Shown piece after piece: positions 48,550-56,520 of a DNA stretch of 64,000 nucleotides. A model generated the notes under the pieces. That model saw only the letters and a list, made by a program, of their open reading frames with translations. It searched no databases and was not told the DNA's origin. The stretch covers positions 62,001 through 126,000 of the forward strand of contig JANYDA010000049.1 of the NCBI GenBank assembly GCA_025360005.1, read 5' to 3'. Source of the DNA: Fibrobacteria bacterium (lineage in GTDB: Bacteria; Fibrobacterota; Fibrobacteria; UBA11236). The position numbers and the translations under genes were made by a program. Numbering within the stretch: the first letter of the stretch is position 1; the number at the start of each line of letters is the position of its first letter.

Positions 48550-49224
48550 TCAATGGATTTTCAGGACGATGCGCCGGTTCTTGGCCTGATTGGCCGCGAT
48601 GGGCTTGCCCTCGCCGTCCACGTTGGGCGCCTTGGGCTTGGTATCGGCGTAGCCGGCCGCCTTCAGGCGCTCGGAGGGAATGCCCTTTCCGATCAGGTAC
48701 TTCACGATATTGGTGGCCCGGGACACGGAGAGTTCCCAGTTGGAGGGGAACTGCAAGGTATTGATCGGGATGTTATCCGTGTGGCCCTCGATATCCACGG
48801 CGAACTTGTAATACTCGATGCGCTGGATGGCCTCGGCGACCTTGTCCATGTTGGCCCGTGCCGCGGGGCCGATGTCCGCCCGGCCCGGATCGTAGATGGC
48901 GGAACTGGAAAACTCGACGATGATCCCGTCGCGGCCCAGATCCACGCTCACTTCGCCGCGCCCGCGCTGATCGGCCAGCAGGGAATCCAAATCGTGCTTG
49001 ATTTCCCCCAACGGAGTCTTGACGTCCTTATCCTTGCCGATGTCGCTGCGCAATCCCTTTTTCATCTGCTCGAACAGGACCGGATCCACATGGGAGACGG
49101 ACAGCATGGCCAGGAAAAACGCCATCAGGAGGGTGACCATGTCCGCGTAGCTCATGAGCCAATCCTCTTCGGCTCCCTCCTGCTCATGGACGCGATGGCG
49201 GTTGTGGTGCTTGCTGATGGCCAT
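48550..49224 (-). CDS. motB: MotB-like stator protein
   Basis: A 224-residue stator subunit with one membrane helix and a C-terminal OmpA-type peptidoglycan-binding domain. The ion-binding aspartate is D28 in SYADMVTLLMAFF, directly comparable to D32 of E. coli MotB, so the channel should conduct protons or sodium. A plug/linker region follows (about 48-85), and the OmpA domain has GHTDNIPI, NWELSVSRATNIVKYL and NRRIVLKIH. It starts eight bases after the motA stop and is the last gene of the five-gene unit. Confidence 0.95.
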   Translation of the reverse strand: MAISKHHNRHRVHEQEGAEEDWLMSYADMVTLLMAFFLAMLSVSHVDPVLFEQMKKGLRSDIGKDKDVKTPLGEIKHDLDSLLADQRGRGEVSVDLGRDGIIVEFSSSAIYDPGRADIGPAARANMDKVAEAIQRIEYYKFAVDIEGHTDNIPINTLQFPSNWELSVSRATNIVKYLIGKGIPSERLKAAGYADTKPKAPNVDGEGKPIAANQAKNRRIVLKIH

Positions 49225-49232
49225 GGGCCCGC

Positions 49233-50069
49233 CTACTTGCCCTTGGCCGTCCCGCCTTTGGCGGACCCGCCTTTGCCCGATCCGTTTTTATCGCCGAACA
49301 GGGAATACTGCTCGCGGCGATCCAGGTAGGAGTTCATCTTGTCCTGGATGTACATGGCCGGTTTCTTCTCCATGATCAGGACCAGGGCCTCCAGGACCAG
49401 GTAGTGGCGGAAACGCTCGATGCTCAAGGTCTGCTTCACCTTGGTGGAAGAGGGCATGAAAACGAAGCGGGCGAACAGCAGGCCGTAGAGCGTGGCCGTC
49501 AGCGCCAGGGAAAGCCCCGGACCCAGCTTGGACGGATCCTCCAGCTTGCCCAGCATCACGATCAGGCCCAGCAGGGTGCCCACCAGGCCGAAGGCCGGCG
49601 TCATGGACCCCATGGAAGTGAGGATGGTGGAACCTTGCAGGTGCCGGAAGTAATGTTCTTCGATGTTGGTGGTGCCGAACTCGCGGATGTCGTCCGGCTT
49701 ATAACCGGTGCTGGCAAGGGTGAAAATGTACTTGGTGAATTCGTCCTTACTGCCCTTGGCGATGGCATCGTAGGCGCTCTGTCCCTCCGCCTGCACCCTC
49801 TTGGCCCAATCGCCGGCCGTCCTCACGTCCTGGATCAGGCTCTTGGACGAGATGTCCTGCTTGAGGAATATCTTGAGCGTTGCCAGGAAGGCGTTCCAGA
49901 CGTACTGGAACCGGAAACCGATGAAGGTAACCGTCACGGTACCCCCGAAGACGATGGCCAGGCTGCCCAGGCTCAGGAAGACATGCCAATCCTTGGTCTC
50001 GTGCAGAATACCGAAGGCGATGACCAGGAACCCGAAGATGACGCCGCATACGGTGGAGAGGGAGATCAT
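49233..50069 (-). CDS. motA: MotA-like stator protein
   Basis: A 278-residue MotA/PomA-type subunit starting at the ATG at 50069, which overlaps the stop of the TPR lipoprotein gene (ATGA). Four membrane segments are visible: near residues 3-22 and 30-50, then after the long cytoplasmic loop SMTPAFGLVGTLLGLIVMLG, which carries the conserved Pro, and a helix near 200. The cytoplasmic loop (about 60-150) is the part that pushes on FliG in flagellar motors. The C-terminus has a Gly/Lys-rich tail (KGGSAKGGTAKGK). It belongs to the MotA rather than ExbB/TolQ branch by length and loop arrangement. Confidence 0.95.
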   Translation of the reverse strand: MISLSTVCGVIFGFLVIAFGILHETKDWHVFLSLGSLAIVFGGTVTVTFIGFRFQYVWNAFLATLKIFLKQDISSKSLIQDVRTAGDWAKRVQAEGQSAYDAIAKGSKDEFTKYIFTLASTGYKPDDIREFGTTNIEEHYFRHLQGSTILTSMGSMTPAFGLVGTLLGLIVMLGKLEDPSKLGPGLSLALTATLYGLLFARFVFMPSSTKVKQTLSIERFRHYLVLEALVLIMEKKPAMYIQDKMNSYLDRREQYSLFGDKNGSGKGGSAKGGTAKGK

Positions 50070-51376
50070 TTGGGTTTGGCCTCGGGCTTGGGCGCCATGG
50101 ATTTGGGCAGCACGGGTCCGGCCTTGACGGCGGACGCGGAAGGCTTGGCGGCCGCGTCCGGTTTGAGCGGCGTTGCCGCGGGTGCGGGGACCGGCGCAGC
50201 GGGCGCTTCCGTTCCGGATGCCACGGCGGCGGTATCGCCTTCTTCGGCGTTTGCGGGCGCGGAGGGCGGCGCGGCTGGAGCGGCGGAGGAATGCGCTTGG
50301 GTGGGACGGGCCAGGTGGGTCGTGCGCGGCGCGGGGGGTGCGGGAACGGGTTCGGCCGCGGGAGCCGGCGCGGCCGCGGGGCCGGGCATGGGCGAGGATT
50401 CGGGCGCAGCTACCCCCCAAGGAGCGGACGGCGGAACAGGCGCGGCGGTTTGCGGACCGGTGTATTCTTCCGGATAGGGAACCTGGTCCGCTTCCGGAAG
50501 CGGCGCGGTGGGCGCGCGCGGCGCGGGACGGGAAACGATGGGACGGGGATTGGGGGAGCCGCGGCCGCCGGGCGTGCGCGTCTTCTCCAGCATGTTGACA
50601 ACGGCGGGCATGTCGGGATTAAGCCGCAGGGCTTCCAGCCATTCGCGGCGCGCCATGCCGCCTTGGCTCTGCATATAGTAGATGCTGCCCGCCAGGGCGT
50701 GGCCTTCCGCGGTGGATCGCGCGTCCAGGGAGGACCGCACCGCCTGCATCGCTTCCGGGTAGCGCTTCTGGTAGAAAAGCTCCTGGGCCTTGCGGATGCC
50801 GGTGAGCACCTTGGAGGTAACATCCTCGTAACTCCCCTGATCGTCCTCGGGAAGCGGCGCTTCCGGCTTCGCTTGCGCGTGCGGGTTCGGCGGCGGTTGC
50901 CGGCCGGCCTGCGGCTGGCCGCGCGGCGCGGGGAGGGAGGGTTCCGGATCGGGGTTGGCATCGTCCTGGCTGTCCTGGGAAGCGGGCCGCGCATCCGGCC
51001 TGGCCTCCTTTTTCCGCTGGGACGCATGATGCTCATCCTGATCGTGCGCGGCCTTGGCTTCTTCGCCGGGAGGCGGATTGGGCCTGCCGGTCATTTCCAG
51101 GTACAGATCGGTGGAACCCAGATCGATGGCCAGGTTGGCGTCCGTGCTCTTGTTGGAATAATGGAAACTGACATTGCCTTCGCCGGCCTCTCCGGCGGCA
51201 TCCTGCGCCGCCGCTGCGGCGGCGGCGCGCTTGGGCGCGCCGGGCTCCGGGCCGCTGCCGCCGCACCCCGCCCACAGTAACGCGGCAGTTACGGCCGCGA
51301 CCGCGCCCATGCCCGCATGCGCGGATGCGGAGCGCCGGCGGGCGTCAGAACGTGTAGTGGAGGTAGGTGAGTTCAT
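50066..51376 (-). CDS. TPR lipoprotein of the rotor-stator operon
   Basis: A 436-residue lipoprotein (lipobox near LLWAGC, Cys38). The N-terminal half is Pro/Ala/Glu-rich after a short segment FHYSNKSTDANLAIDLGSTDLYLEM. A TPR-like helical section spans about 185-265 (ELFYQKRYPEAMQAV, GHALAGSIYYMQSQGG, REWLEALRLNPDM). The rest is a 170-residue Pro/Ala-rich tail. It would sit in the periplasmic leaflet of the outer or inner membrane. The start overlaps the upstream barrel gene by 32 bases and the stop overlaps motA, so it is tightly coupled. A scaffold between stator and outer membrane is my inference. Confidence 0.8.
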   Translation of the reverse strand: MNSPTSTTRSDARRRSASAHAGMGAVAAVTAALLWAGCGGSGPEPGAPKRAAAAAAAQDAAGEAGEGNVSFHYSNKSTDANLAIDLGSTDLYLEMTGRPNPPPGEEAKAAHDQDEHHASQRKKEARPDARPASQDSQDDANPDPEPSLPAPRGQPQAGRQPPPNPHAQAKPEAPLPEDDQGSYEDVTSKVLTGIRKAQELFYQKRYPEAMQAVRSSLDARSTAEGHALAGSIYYMQSQGGMARREWLEALRLNPDMPAVVNMLEKTRTPGGRGSPNPRPIVSRPAPRAPTAPLPEADQVPYPEEYTGPQTAAPVPPSAPWGVAAPESSPMPGPAAAPAPAAEPVPAPPAPRTTHLARPTQAHSSAAPAAPPSAPANAEEGDTAAVASGTEAPAAPVPAPAATPLKPDAAAKPSASAVKAGPVLPKSMAPKPEAKPK

Positions 51377-52478
51377 AGGCTACGGGTTCCAGGGTCAGGA
51401 AGCGATCTTGATCCGCGCCCAGCCCTTTCAGTTTGTTGTTGAGGGGAAGGAACAGCACGCCTCCGCCCAAGGTGAAATGCCGGCTGACGCGCGATTTGTA
51501 TCCTACGGAGAGGGCGCTCAGATGCCCGCGATTGAAGAACGGGATGAACTCCTGGTAGCCTACATACGTGCCCAGCCAATAACCCAGGTCCGGGTTGGAT
51601 TTGCGGAAGAAAATCCCCAGCATCTCGATGCCGAACTTCACCATCTGGATGTTGAAGTTGACGTTTAAGCTGTCCGGGCCGCCGCCGCCCGTGGCCAGGC
51701 CGTAGCCGAGCGATACGGAGAAGAGCAGGAACTTGTCCGGGGTGACCACTTCGCTCACGGAGCCTTCGACCCCGTATTCCGTCAGCGCCAGATCGGAAAG
51801 CGTGTCCAGCCGGGCCTTGCCCGTCAGCGCATTGACGGAATCCGGACTGGGCAGAATGCTCTGCCGGATTGGAAAGCGGCGCAGGTTGGCGGAAGCGCTC
51901 CAATCCAGGTTCCAGATATCCGGTTTCTTCTCGTTGGGCCCGGCCACGAAACTGGCCGACCAGACGATTTCGCCGGTGCGATGGCGGAACACCTTCAGGT
52001 TCAGGATCACGTCATTGTCGGAGCTCTTGGAACAGGATCCCTCGATGTATCCGTCCACGCGCAGTTTATCGCCCAGTCTCCAGAGATCTTCCATGGAAGG
52101 CAGCGTATTCGAGAATTTGAACGTGCTGTCCGTGGCGACCACGCGGAAGGTGCGGAGCTCCGGGGCCGTGACCACGGTCCGGCGTCCTTCTTTTCGGAAC
52201 ACCTCTTCGATCTGCGCCTGGATATAGCGGGACATGCCCGGGCTGAAATCCTTGGGATCGACCTTCACCTGGGTGAGCGCGATGCGGTCCACGTTGGGCG
52301 GGATATCCCCCATGGTCTTGGCCAGGCGCCCCATGATCTCCGCGATCTGGCGGAGCCCGGTATTGCTGGGCGCGAAGGGATCCTGCGGAGGCGATTGCGC
52401 GGTCGCGGCCGAGGCAAGGCAGGCGGCCAGCATCAGCAACGCGGCAAACCGCGGCCGGGGCCCGGCGGCCGTCTTCAT
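51345..52478 (-). CDS. CsgG/FlgO-like outer-membrane protein with C-terminal barrel
   Basis: A 377-residue exported protein (signal FAALLMLAACLASAATAQ). Residues 60-195 resemble the CsgG/FlgO/LpoB-type domain: RIALTQVKVD at the start, RYIQAQIEEVFRKEGRRTVVTAPEL, then LGDKLRVDGYIEGSC and VFRHRTGEIVWSASF. FlgO-type proteins sit at the flagellar outer-membrane ring. Residues 215-377 look like beta-strands of a barrel and end in LHYTF, with the terminal Phe typical of outer-membrane proteins. The ATG overlaps the FliF/FliG gene stop (ATGA). I infer an outer-membrane ring or anchor for the motor. Confidence 0.75.
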   Translation of the reverse strand: MKTAAGPRPRFAALLMLAACLASAATAQSPPQDPFAPSNTGLRQIAEIMGRLAKTMGDIPPNVDRIALTQVKVDPKDFSPGMSRYIQAQIEEVFRKEGRRTVVTAPELRTFRVVATDSTFKFSNTLPSMEDLWRLGDKLRVDGYIEGSCSKSSDNDVILNLKVFRHRTGEIVWSASFVAGPNEKKPDIWNLDWSASANLRRFPIRQSILPSPDSVNALTGKARLDTLSDLALTEYGVEGSVSEVVTPDKFLLFSVSLGYGLATGGGGPDSLNVNFNIQMVKFGIEMLGIFFRKSNPDLGYWLGTYVGYQEFIPFFNRGHLSALSVGYKSRVSRHFTLGGGVLFLPLNNKLKGLGADQDRFLTLEPVAYELTYLHYTF

Positions 52479-54304
52479 ACCGGCCTTCCCGAATGCCTGA
52501 TCTCGTCGCGAATGCGATGGAGCAGGCGGCGCTGCGCCGTTTCGGAATCCCTGGGGGTGGCGTCCTGGGAGCCTTCCAGGCCCCCGTGCACCATCATCTG
52601 CATGCGCTCGGGCAATAGCGACAGTACCTTGGTGCGGATGGCCCCGTCCACGTGCCGGAGTGCCAGGATGAGCGTTTCCTGATCCAGGCCCTGGAGCACG
52701 TTGGCCAGGAACTTGTCCGGCAGGCCCGCCAGCTCCGGCAAGGTAACATACCGGTTACGCAACTTCTCCCCAAGCCCAAGATCCATCTCGGAAATGGAAT
52801 GGATGTATTGGAATTGCAGGTTGAGGGGCAGGCTGTCGATCAATTCCAGGATGCTGTCCACGCCGTCGGCGGCCACGTAGCGCATATTGCCCACTTCCAA
52901 CGCCTTCAGGGACAGGCGATCGGCTATCTCCTTGTACACGTTGAGGGGGATGTGGTCGATGTTGCCCATGGCGATGAGGAGCTTGGCGCGGTTGTCCGGA
53001 TCCGTCTTCTGCAGGATGCCTCCCGCGATCTCGCCCGGCAATTGCGCCAGCACCAAACCCACTATCCCCAGCGACTCGTCGCGCAGGATATGCATGATCT
53101 GCTGTTCGTTCATCTGCAGCAGGAAGCCGAACAGATCCTTGTACTGATCCTCATCGAGTTTGCCGTTGGCCAGGTTCTGGTATTCGCGCTTGAACTCCTT
53201 ATAGACCGTGAGCATCTCTTCGGAAGAGGGCGCTTCGCCCGCGTTCAGGTGCATTTCCAGTTTCTGGGTGAGATCGCGGCCCAGCTCCGGGGCCACTACG
53301 CCCATCAGGCGCGCATCCAGGCTGGCTATCATGGCCGCGGAGTCGCGCATGCCCTTGTCCGGATCGCGATCGATCCAGCTCTTGATGATCTGGCCGCAAT
53401 GCTTGGGGCTGCCCACGAAGCAGTTGAGCAGGAAGGGCCGGAAGGCGCCTATTTCCGGGGGCTGGCTTTTGCCCGCTTCCTGGCGCGGCGCCGGCGGGGC
53501 CTTGGGGGGTTCGGGCATAGCCGCGGGAGGAAGCGCATCCTTATCCTGCCGGCCGTTGCGGGGGGAACCGGCGATGGCGCGCGAGACCATCCATACGCAC
53601 GCCAGGATGAGCAGGCAGATGATCACGAGCGGGATCAGGGAAGGAAGATGATCGGTGTAATTACTGAAGGGGTTCATGGCGGCCTTCTCCTTGGGGTCCT
53701 CCTTCTTGGCGGGCGGATCGGTCTTGGGCGGGACCGGCGCGGGGGGAGGCGGATCCACGGGCTTGCGGTAATTGGTCAGCGAGCGGTTGTCGCGCGGGAA
53801 CACGCCTTCGTGCACGGACACGCGATCGCCGCGCTGCTCGTCCAGCCGGGTGGCCATGACCAGGAGGTTGCGGATGAAGTCGGCGTCCTTTTCCGAATAG
53901 CCCGTGTCCACTAGGATGTCCAGGGTAACCGCCTGGATACCCCCGCTGCCCTTGTCCGCGTCCGCGGCCGGCTGCGCGGGAGGGGCGGGCTGCATATTAT
54001 CCGGCAGGAAGGGGAGGCCCGGAAGCTGCTGGGGAGACTCGCCGGCCACGGCGGCCGGATCCTCGCCGCCCAGTTCCATTTCCGGGGGCGGCTCCATCTC
54101 AACTTTCGCCTTGACCAGGAAGGTCGCCTCCTCGTAATAGCGCGACAAAGTGCGCGCGGCGACGGCTTCGTAATATTGCGCCAGCTTTCCCGCCTGGTCT
54201 TGCGGGGCCCGGGCGCCCGCCGGAGCAGGCTGCGCGGGGGCCCGCAGGTATGCGGACAGCGCGATGAGGAGCGTGAGGCTCGCGATTTTTCCGGGGTTCG
54301 GCAT
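52475..54304 (-). CDS. FliF C-terminal / FliG fusion: membrane-anchored rotor-like protein
   Basis: About 609 residues from the ATG at 54304, which gives a normal signal peptide (KIASLTLLIALSAYLRAPAQ); an ATG at 54331 would add nine residues. A periplasmic part (to about 215) ends in a FliF/YscJ-type segment (VTLDILVDTG ... LDEQRGDRVSVHEGVFPRD). A membrane helix follows near 220-248 (LPSLIPLVIICLLILACVWMV), and the cytoplasmic half (about 290-609) is FliG-like. It includes a FliG-M region where the usual EHPQ motif reads DESL (409-412), and a FliG-C region, NVLQGLDQETLILALRHVDGAIRTKVLSLLPERM, that aligns with the torque-generating part. The membrane ring protein and the rotor switch protein are thus one polypeptide. 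It is the first gene of the five-gene unit. A TATAAT lies just upstream (54315-54320), without a clear -35. Confidence 0.82.
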   Translation of the reverse strand: MPNPGKIASLTLLIALSAYLRAPAQPAPAGARAPQDQAGKLAQYYEAVAARTLSRYYEEATFLVKAKVEMEPPPEMELGGEDPAAVAGESPQQLPGLPFLPDNMQPAPPAQPAADADKGSGGIQAVTLDILVDTGYSEKDADFIRNLLVMATRLDEQRGDRVSVHEGVFPRDNRSLTNYRKPVDPPPPAPVPPKTDPPAKKEDPKEKAAMNPFSNYTDHLPSLIPLVIICLLILACVWMVSRAIAGSPRNGRQDKDALPPAAMPEPPKAPPAPRQEAGKSQPPEIGAFRPFLLNCFVGSPKHCGQIIKSWIDRDPDKGMRDSAAMIASLDARLMGVVAPELGRDLTQKLEMHLNAGEAPSSEEMLTVYKEFKREYQNLANGKLDEDQYKDLFGFLLQMNEQQIMHILRDESLGIVGLVLAQLPGEIAGGILQKTDPDNRAKLLIAMGNIDHIPLNVYKEIADRLSLKALEVGNMRYVAADGVDSILELIDSLPLNLQFQYIHSISEMDLGLGEKLRNRYVTLPELAGLPDKFLANVLQGLDQETLILALRHVDGAIRTKVLSLLPERMQMMVHGGLEGSQDATPRDSETAQRRLLHRIRDEIRHSGRPV

Positions 54305-54434: not shown

Positions 54435-54489
54435 CTCCGGGATGGAGCGACGTCCGGTAGCATAGGCTTTTGCCGGGGAAGGATTGGAC

Positions 54490-56193
54490 ATGCCGGTATG
54501 GTTTCGCCTCGCCATCCTCGCCGCCTGCGCGCTCTGCGCATGCGATGACGGCGTGGTGCATATCGTCCGCTTCCCTTCGGGCAGAATCCGGGAAATGTGG
54601 ACGGAAAAAGGGATCGATCCCAAAGCGACCGCGCGCGACGGCCTTTTCCGATCCTTCTTCGCGGACGGAAGCAGAGCCGGGGAAATCATGTACCGCGCGG
54701 GGAAAAAGCACGGCGCCGCCAGCTTATGGGGGGCGGACGGAAAACTCCTTTTCCAAGGCGAATACCGGGACGATTTTCTGGTGCGGGAGACGCGCTATGA
54801 TTCCTCCGGAAAGGCGTCTTCGGATCGGCGATTCACGGTCAAACCGGATCGCGTCAAGGCGGTGGGCCCTTCCGGAGACTCCATGACGGTCGTGGAAACC
54901 TGCGCCTGGTCGCAGGAACCGGACCGGCCGCCCGTCAAATACGGGCTTTGCACCCTGAAGTACGCAGACGGCAGAAACCTGGCGACCCGCTATTACCAAT
55001 CCGGCCGCCTGAACGGACCCGTCAGGGCTTGGTACCCGGACGGCACTCCCTGGCTGCAAGGGGGCTACGAGAACGACATCCCCGCGGGCAAATGGAAGAC
55101 TTGGTCCCAGAGCGGCAACCCGCTCTGGGGCGCCGCCTACGTGAAAGGCGAAAAGGACGGGGACTGGGAGGAATGGTTCCCGGACGGCACGCGGAAATCC
55201 AAATCCGGTTTTCGCGGCGGCGTCCCGGAAGGGGGGTATCAGGAATGGTACCCCAACGGCAAGCTCCGACTGCGCGGGCAATTCCGCTCCGGCCGCCGCG
55301 AAGGCAAGGAAGCCGCCTGGTACCCGGACGGCACGCGTCTCTACGCGGCGCAATATGCGGCGGGGAAATTGGAAGGGGACTTCTACCAATGGCATCCCGG
55401 CGGCAAGCTGCGCCTGCATTGCGGCTTCGCCAAGGGCAGGCGGGAAGGCTCCAGCCGCATCTGGTATCCCGGCGGCGGCCTGCAGGAACAGGCCTATTAC
55501 AAGGACGGACGCCTGAACGAATCCTATCGCACCTGGTCGGCGGACGGCGCGCCCATGGCCATGAAGGAAATACGCGACGGCGCCGTGGCTTTCGATTCCA
55601 AGGCCAAGGAACTCCTTGATCTTTTGGGCGCGGACAGGTTGCGCGTGCCCGTGGGCATGATGGGATTCTATTGGGGCATGGGGATTAAGGAATGCCGCGC
55701 CAACCTGGGTCTGTACCAGGTTTCGGAAGTGCGCGCCGGCGACAGCGAAATCACGGCGCAGCTGATCGCTTTTCCCGATCGCCGGCCCACGCGGGCGCGC
55801 ATCCGTCTCGCCTTCAACAGCCAGGGAGAGCTATGGGGGCTCAAATTGGATCTGACCCAGAAATCGTCGGCGGATTTCTTCCCCCTTTGCGAGAACCTGG
55901 AGATCGAAATCGGGGCGGAGCTGGGGACGGTGGGGTTGCGGAAGGCGGAAAGCGGATCCGGATACAGTATGACCCGGAAAAGGGAATGGGGGCGGTTCAC
56001 GGTGACCACCGGGGCCGACGGGAAGATCAGACAGACACTTCCGGTCCTCAACGCGGAAGGGTTCAGCCCTTCCGGCCCGGGTTGGTTCCGATTTTCCTTG
56101 GCGAACCAACTCTACCGCGAGTACGTGAATCCGGCCAACATCTCCATCACGCCTCCCCGCTGGCAGGAAGAAGCCTTCCTGGCCGGGCGTTGA
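54490..56193 (+). CDS. MORN-repeat lipoprotein
   Basis: About 567 residues from the ATG at 54490 (GGGGAAGGA upstream). The N-terminus is a lipoprotein signal; either Cys13 (ILAAC) or Cys18 (LCAC) could carry the lipid. Residues 40-365 consist of about ten MORN-2 repeats of 20-24 residues with the pattern (E/A)WYPDG...GxxxxGxxxG (for example EWFPDGTRKSKSGFRGGVPEG). The C-terminal 190 residues (from KELLDLLGADRLRVPVGMMG) are a separate unknown domain. YwqK-type MORN proteins occur as surface or toxin-immunity lipoproteins. Its sigma-28-like promoter and divergent position suggest work with the adjacent rotor-stator operon. Confidence 0.82.
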   Translation: MPVWFRLAILAACALCACDDGVVHIVRFPSGRIREMWTEKGIDPKATARDGLFRSFFADGSRAGEIMYRAGKKHGAASLWGADGKLLFQGEYRDDFLVRETRYDSSGKASSDRRFTVKPDRVKAVGPSGDSMTVVETCAWSQEPDRPPVKYGLCTLKYADGRNLATRYYQSGRLNGPVRAWYPDGTPWLQGGYENDIPAGKWKTWSQSGNPLWGAAYVKGEKDGDWEEWFPDGTRKSKSGFRGGVPEGGYQEWYPNGKLRLRGQFRSGRREGKEAAWYPDGTRLYAAQYAAGKLEGDFYQWHPGGKLRLHCGFAKGRREGSSRIWYPGGGLQEQAYYKDGRLNESYRTWSADGAPMAMKEIRDGAVAFDSKAKELLDLLGADRLRVPVGMMGFYWGMGIKECRANLGLYQVSEVRAGDSEITAQLIAFPDRRPTRARIRLAFNSQGELWGLKLDLTQKSSADFFPLCENLEIEIGAELGTVGLRKAESGSGYSMTRKREWGRFTVTTGADGKIRQTLPVLNAEGFSPSGPGWFRFSLANQLYREYVNPANISITPPRWQEEAFLAGR

Positions 56194-56208: not shown

Positions 56209-56520
56209 TCAGCGGCTCAATTGCTTGAGCGTTCTTTGCAAAATGGTGATCTGCTTCTTGAAGGATTTCAGCGCGGCCATGGCGGCGTTCACGCTCTTCA
56301 GCTTGCGGCCGTCCAGGCCTTTGGAGGCGCCGCGCCCGGCCTTTTTGCCGCCGGTCTCGCCGTTCATCCAACGCCGCAATGCGATATAGGATACTCCGAA
56401 TTTCTCACCCGCCGCGGAAATGCCCCCACGACCCCGGCTGTTCACGAAATTCAGGATCTTGCGCTTCTGAGCGTCGCTATATCGCTTGCCTGTGTTTCCT
56501 TTTTTCCTCGCAGTAGCCAA
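56209..56520 (-). CDS. Small HTH DNA-binding protein
   Basis: A 103-residue basic protein begun by a TTG at 56518-56520 with AAAGGA upstream. Residues 12-55 form a helix-turn-helix of the transposase/IS3-OrfA-like type (GKRYSDAQKRKILNFV, AAGEKFGVSYIALRRWM). A Lys/Gly linker and a C-terminal helix (NAAMAALKSFKKQITILQRTLKQL, suited to a coiled coil) follow. No transposase or inverted repeats adjoin it, so it is probably a chromosomal regulator rather than an insertion sequence. The target is unknown. Confidence 0.72.
   Translation of the reverse strand: MATARKKGNTGKRYSDAQKRKILNFVNSRGRGGISAAGEKFGVSYIALRRWMNGETGGKKAGRGASKGLDGRKLKSVNAAMAALKSFKKQITILQRTLKQLSR

Follow-up and report, generated by a model that had tools for sequence, protein, structure and literature searches.

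The 64,000-nucleotide window analysed here, part of contig JANYDA010000049.1 of a Fibrobacteria bacterium, contains a minus-strand operon of five genes (positions 48550-54304) that places a fusion of the flagellar rotor proteins FliF and FliG together with a MotA-MotB stator and two envelope proteins. On computation only, we consider the operon likely to specify an ion-driven rotary motor that is self-contained and non-flagellar. The source genome (G000; here G labels denote genomes and L labels loci) is 4.98 Mb in length and 98% complete, and its relatives are titled Fibrobacteres or Fibrobacteria. The five genes are as follows:

52475-54304, minus strand: gene 1, FliF(RBM3-TM2-tail)-FliG(N-M-C) fusion, 609 amino acids, with a signal peptide or helix at the N-terminus (Pfam, AlphaFold)
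51345-52478, minus strand: gene 2, CsgG-like outer-membrane protein, 377 amino acids (AlphaFold fold matches)
50066-51376, minus strand: gene 3, TPR lipoprotein, 436 amino acids (Pfam TPR_2, 0.0007)
49233-50069, minus strand: gene 4, MotA stator subunit, 278 amino acids (Pfam MotA_ExbB, 4.1e-22)
48550-49224, minus strand: gene 5, MotB stator subunit, 224 amino acids (Pfam MotB_plug, 4.5e-17; OmpA, 3.2e-16)

All five reading frames are intact and tightly spaced, with ATGA overlaps at 52475-52478 and 50066-50069, a 32-base overlap between genes 2 and 3 (51345-51376), and an 8-base gap between genes 4 and 5 (49225-49232); the junctions given in a preliminary description of this DNA are exact to the base. 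No export gate, rod, filament, C-ring FliM or FliN, or M-ring core (RBM1/2) is encoded within the five-gene locus.

The rotor protein is the product of gene 1, in which the following segments are recognized:

53795-54217, minus strand: FliF RBM3/S-ring domain, residues ~30-170, containing the motifs LPGLP and RGD..V
53570-53647, minus strand: single membrane helix equivalent to FliF TM2, residues ~220-245
53354-53413, minus strand: FliF C-terminal FliG-binding tail, GSPKHCGQIIKSWIDRD, resembling the canonical EPINIANLIKTWL
52886-53104, minus strand: FliG middle domain, with the FliM-binding EHPQ replaced by ESLG at 53066-53077
52502-52798, minus strand: FliG C-terminal torque domain, in which R567 is the equivalent of R281

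The FliG part exceeds the Pfam cut-offs for both the C-terminal domain (FliG_C, 3.1e-14, 53.6 bits, cut-off 23.3) and the middle domain (FliG_M, 4.8e-12, 46.4 bits, cut-off 25), with weak matches to FliG_N and FliF_C; the score of the fusion against the NCBIfam fliG equivalog (69.7) is below its cut-off of 226.7. Structure comparison with VIA-align, using an AlphaFold model built from nine orthologues, superposes residues 386-609 on FliG with Z about 15 (FliG fold range Z 14.5-15.8), and residues 519-607 on FliG_C of 1qc7 with Z 14.5 (89 residues, 1.6 A). Residues 30-170 superpose on the FliF S-ring 8z5v (Z 12.7, 98 residues, 3.1 A), Z exceeds 10 for about a dozen FliF entries (FliF MS-ring range Z 10.7-12.7), and hhalign of this domain with Fibrobacterota FliF gives 93.5% (E 2.3e-7). 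The membrane helix is modelled at residues 224-245, and the segment LPSLIPL..CLLILACVW is invariant across the genus. The FliF tail sits directly ahead of the FliG part (GSPKHCGQIIKSWI compared with canonical EPINIANLIKTWL, profile comparison E 3.3e-4), and the fusion thus has both the RBM3 fold and the C-terminal tail of FliF. Neither Pfam, which gives no YscJ_FliF match, nor structure comparison finds RBM1, RBM2 or TM1. The fusion of a FliF C-terminal part, membrane helix and FliG proposed in the preliminary description is therefore borne out, with the addition of the FliG-binding tail. As modelled, gene 1 runs from the second half of FliF straight into a complete FliG, and a signal peptide or helix takes the place of TM1-RBM1-RBM2; such a fusion would be a simple event, because fliF and fliG are adjacent in the canonical operon. 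All 30 canonical FliGs tested from the Fibrobacterota have the EHPQ motif, no module FliG does, and the site reads E-[SP]-x-G in all nine Fibrobacterota orthologues. Loss of the motif, together with that of the RBM1/2 domains that house the export gate, is consistent with a motor that has no export role and works without the usual switch complex.

Genes 4 and 5 code for a stator of flagellar type. MotA has the MotA fold and keeps the equivalents of P173, T209 and P222 (E. coli numbering here and below), and MotB has a plug region, the ion-carrying Asp28 (equivalent to D32), and an OmpA-type peptidoglycan-binding domain with T196, D197, R217 and R258 retained. The module stator proteins score 121-135 bits against MotP/MotA models, compared with 20-22 bits against ExbB/TolQ.

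The same genome holds a separate canonical FliF (527 amino acids, YscJ_FliF 222 bits) and FliG (352 amino acids, FliG_C 171 bits), both on contig C32, as well as FlhA (C54), FliM (C42) and a second MotB (C34), with the module on C14. The five-gene module is therefore a second rotor and stator and not the flagellar locus. The proposal of a minimal rotor-stator machine in the preliminary description depended on these genes not being simply the only fliF, fliG and motAB copies, which they are not. Its alternative, an unusual partial flagellar locus in a genome with a complete flagellum elsewhere, is probably right about the flagellum, but that flagellum has a rotor and stator of its own.

The full-length fusion is found in nine of the 168 Fibrobacterota genomes, representing four families of one class, and the five-gene order is common to all nine wherever the contig allows, with flanks that differ between families; in G155 gene 3 is truncated by the end of the contig, and MotA-MotB are on another one. 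Across these carriers, identity to the window proteins falls to 35% for the fusion and 53-54% for MotA and MotB, and the closest orthologues share 82-93% (MotB) and about 80% (fusion). All nine also encode a second, canonical FliG and FlhA, and among the flagellated Fibrobacterota checked the carriers have two or three MotB matches and the non-carriers one, with none in G043 (73% complete). The second canonical set, and the alteration of several canonical FliG residues, could be read as signs of a decaying relic of a flagellar locus, but the frames and their coupling are intact in nine genomes of four families, the catalytic and structural residues are retained, the closest orthologues are conserved to the degree just noted, and the module is independently present in other phyla; we regard a relic as already contradicted and scarcely credible.

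A MORN-repeat protein gene (54484-56193, plus strand) is divergent from the operon and is followed by a small helix-turn-helix protein gene (56209-56520, minus strand); both adjoin the operon in each of the six genomes from the window's genus and were not found beside it in other families. In G044 (L083:1-6326) a CheA-CheW-receptor-CheB-like chemotaxis cluster is located upstream of the operon, beyond a trpS-like gene. Two genomes of the window's genus have extra FlhA copies scoring about 700 bits (G157:C218, G157:C250 and G158:C73), which suggests an additional export system. A FliG-type protein in G045 (L084:2432-4153, G045:C111; 578 amino acids, two FliG_C matches, partly masked and reading as N) was set aside because of its flagellar context beside FliM.

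A profile scan of 392 genomes reveals related proteins outside the Fibrobacterota with MotA and MotB in the neighbourhood. Representative arrangements are:

G221: TPR-MotA-MotB-FliF-FliG
G249: MotA-MotB-FliF-FliG
G375: fusion-MotA-MotB-MotB
G234: PorV-like-fusion-MotA-MotB
G380: PorV/TPR-fusion-coiled coil-MotA-MotB
G289: FliF/FliG-MotA-MotB-giant Ig-like protein

The rotor proteins of these relatives exceed the Pfam cut-offs for the FliG C-terminal and middle domains, except for FliG_M in L113, and two exceed that for FliF_C. Neither FlhA nor FliM is present in G210 (96% complete), G249 (86%), G375 (96%), G234 (98%) and G380 (95%), and all five have the rotor, MotA and MotB set; in G210 the one MotB adjoins MotA on a contig other than the rotor's. 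Fusion carriers account for six of six genomes in the phylum of G375 and 13 of 16 in that of G380 (19 of 22 in total), with several copies in some, and searches of the 22 return no FlhA. The presence of related rotor and MotAB loci in genomes lacking FlhA and FliM is the stronger support for the minimal rotor-stator machine, for which torque is the conjectural part.

A FliG tree (338 columns; 42 module and 27 canonical sequences) contains one branch that splits module from canonical FliGs (support 81/87, 82% of bootstrap trees, none of 500 shuffles as low). Fusions of the Fibrobacterota cluster with G210 and G355 (99/93), and then with G221 and G249 (100/98), and the clade of the window protein thus includes two genomes from outside the phylum, G210 and G249, that have neither FlhA nor FliM. 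The tree has some very long branches (G284, L186, L178 and G289), and its deep order is unsure; the G284 protein is fused, has a branch length of 2.14, and is cut at a contig end.

These distributions bear on whether the module is instead an accessory or alternative stator-rotor of an ordinary flagellum, contributing a second rotor ring, a stator, and outer-membrane proteins resembling the H- and T-rings. All nine Fibrobacterota carriers are flagellated as judged by FlhA, alternative stators are common in bacteria, and the periplasmic domain of gene 2 is similar to FlgT/LPHT-ring folds (Z about 8). However, a fusion lacking the FliM motif and RBM1/2 is not expected to carry an export gate, FliGs of the same clade are present in genomes without FlhA and FliM, and the module contig is separate from the four that bear the flagellar loci. 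We think a flagellar accessory distinctly improbable.

Several observations nonetheless weigh against a non-flagellar rotary motor. Within the Fibrobacterota the module occurs only in flagellated genomes, where it may have a role linked to the flagellum, and the AlphaFold model of the fusion, from nine sequences only, is of middling confidence (mean predicted local distance difference test score 66). The nine Fibrobacterota fusions have lost four of the five classical torque-helix charges of FliG (K264, D288, D289 and R297), with position 264 still basic (Arg) in the window copy, and MotA R90 is replaced by Q in all nine module MotAs. In E. coli and Salmonella, the MotA R90-FliG D289 pair has been ascribed a role in positioning the stator and the MotA E98-FliG R281 pair one in torque (PMC4030992). 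R281 is kept and D289 is replaced by G or S in all nine fusions, and MotA position 98 is acidic (D or E) in all nine modules, being D in the window copy; canonical Fibrobacterota MotAs retain both R90 and E98. In the window's clade the positioning pair is thus lost on both partners and the torque pair retained on both, which counts as one evolutionary event, and the canonical electrostatic interface of MotA R90/E98 with FliG D289/R281 is at most half kept (R281 with an acidic residue at 98). Across all lineages the two charge pairs do not co-vary significantly (p 0.12 and 0.19), with G210 and likewise G249 discordant. Co-variation of the pairs, striking in the Fibrobacterota together with G375 and G234, was rejected as proof after including all lineages; that the interface may be specific to its own partner is a lead from the residues. 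Computation shows the domain identities, the predicted folds, the fixed gene order, the occurrence in genomes without FlhA and FliM, and the loss of the FliM motif; ring formation, torque, contact with the outer-membrane proteins, and cargo are inferred.

The two remaining genes code for envelope proteins. The gene 2 product is modelled as a periplasmic alpha-beta domain (residues 42-182) and, C-terminal to it, an outer-membrane barrel of eight strands (186-377) with a terminal Phe. The alpha-beta domain matches LpoB (4q6l, Z 12.0, 125 residues within 43-181), PelC (Z 8.5) and FlgT (3w1e, Z 8.0), and the barrel (188-377) matches NspA (1p4t, Z 13.8). Pfam gives no match for gene 2, and a sequence search against solved structures gives nothing usable, so its relatives are visible by fold only. 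By its predicted fold the domain is of the LpoB/PelC/FlgT type (CsgG/FlgO-like, ABD), in agreement with the CsgG/FlgO-like assignment in the preliminary description, to which the C-terminal barrel is an addition. Gene 3 has Cys38 at the lipobox position, invariant in all eight aligned orthologues, a TPR at 223-255, and a proline-rich tail. A TPR and an outer-membrane protein adjoin the rotor in most relatives as well, and several have PorV/UPF0164-like proteins, fn3/Ig-like surface proteins, response-regulator or two-component genes, and receptor-like or chemotaxis genes nearby.

With its barrel and LpoB/PelC/TolB-like periplasmic domain, gene 2 accords with an envelope energiser of the ExbBD/Tol kind, in which the FliG ring is a scaffold passing force for transport, secretion or envelope stability and not for motility; the PorV-like proteins adjoining relatives, and one weak match to a type IX sorting tail, point the same way. 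However, the module MotA and MotB, with plug and OmpA domain, match flagellar stators far better than ExbB/TolQ, and neither ExbBD nor TolQR is known to need a FliG ring. An energiser is therefore a possibility that we take seriously and think unlikely.

In type-1 relatives (L160:2-9999, L164, L165, L167-L170 and L112) a PorV/UPF0164-like protein with TPR precedes the fusion, and a coiled-coil protein of 1,100-1,300 amino acids, whose start is proline-rich (PPPPPF type), is encoded between the fusion and MotA (in two frames in L165 and L170). Upstream of the type-1 operon, L160:3-2102 matches fn3 and, weakly, Por_Secre_tail (type IX sorting; 3.3e-4, below cut-off), a hint that the type-1 motor might be linked to a type IX-like system for secretion or gliding. 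In type-2 relatives (L108:4708-6150, L159:4085-5497, L178-L181 and L183-L186) there are two MotBs to one MotA; among the copies inspected, the ion-carrying Asp is present in the first MotB and the second has Asn, Thr or Ser at that position, which suggests that the stator axle may be heterodimeric with one active site.

For the rotary motor that we favour, the established flagellar mechanism provides the outline. RBM3 domains would assemble a periplasmic ring, with one helix per fusion subunit spanning the inner membrane and the attached FliG domains forming a cytoplasmic rim; MotA5B2 units, anchored to peptidoglycan by MotB, would push this rim through MotA. Rotation of the RBM3 ring would pass to the TPR lipoprotein and the two-domain barrel protein, and then to the cell surface. 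The most probable output would be surface motility of the gliding type or surface-protein movement, the cargo being the least certain step. The genes near the relatives (TPR, outer-membrane, PorV-like, fn3/Ig-like, and response-regulator or receptor-like) are the reason for proposing a surface-directed cargo, and they point to surface motility or surface-protein movement over nutrient uptake.

Compared with the flagellar motor, the module has the same RBM3, TM2, FliF tail joined to FliG_N, FliG N-M-C domains and MotA5B2-type stator, but FliF and FliG form one chain without RBM1/RBM2/TM1 or the FliM motif, the torque-helix charges are mostly changed, the locus has no export, rod, hook or filament genes, and several carriers in other phyla lack FlhA and FliM. 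In E. coli and Salmonella, engineered or mutant FliF-FliG fusions illustrate that covalent rotor subunits are compatible with rotation, but those proteins keep the whole of FliF and build a flagellum, whereas the module fusion has only part of FliF. Myxococcus AglRQS-Glt similarly uses a MotA and MotB-type stator for surface motion, with TPR and outer-membrane partners, but no FliF/FliG rotor is described for it. AglR is accompanied by two TolR/MotB-like proteins, AglQ and AglS; the window has one MotB, and the type-2 relatives resemble the Myxococcus set in having one MotA and two MotBs. In type IX gliding, the stator-type GldLM motor is coupled to outer-membrane PorV and to secreted adhesins, and some module relatives have PorV-like neighbours, but GldL and GldM are not MotAB-FliG, and no PorV-like neighbour was found in the Fibrobacterota operon. 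Zorya ZorAB is likewise a MotAB-like stator outside flagella, and the module MotB has a weak ZorB match (60 bits); a Zorya defence system was rejected, as there is no ZorA or ZorC/D/E match and a FliG rotor is present.

MotAB-type 5:2 motors are among the subjects of one review (PMC9389320), and a 2026 review of gliding never mentions FliG (PMC13104615). A 2025 survey reports rotor proteins without a filament in 11% of non-motile species and asks whether the rotor has another function (PMC12199754). A description of this operon was not found in the open literature, a search that left preprints and many journals outside, so a prior description is possible.

By its parts the module is a variant of the flagellar rotor-stator kind, and by its use it is probably a separate machine. 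We lean towards a widespread class of non-flagellar rotary motors, present in several phyla, two of them apparently without flagellar export, that serve surface motility or surface-protein movement and may be a sister or early offshoot of the flagellar rotor. FliG has so far been treated as a marker of flagella, and the module gives the question raised by the 2025 survey concrete loci, in which a rotor and its own stator are jointly encoded in genomes that yielded no FlhA or FliM. If the motor is as proposed, no FliG-based motor simpler than its one rotor protein and two stator proteins would be known; the module would be well suited to tests of stator-rotor torque and would bear on the sharing of parts between flagella and gliding machines.

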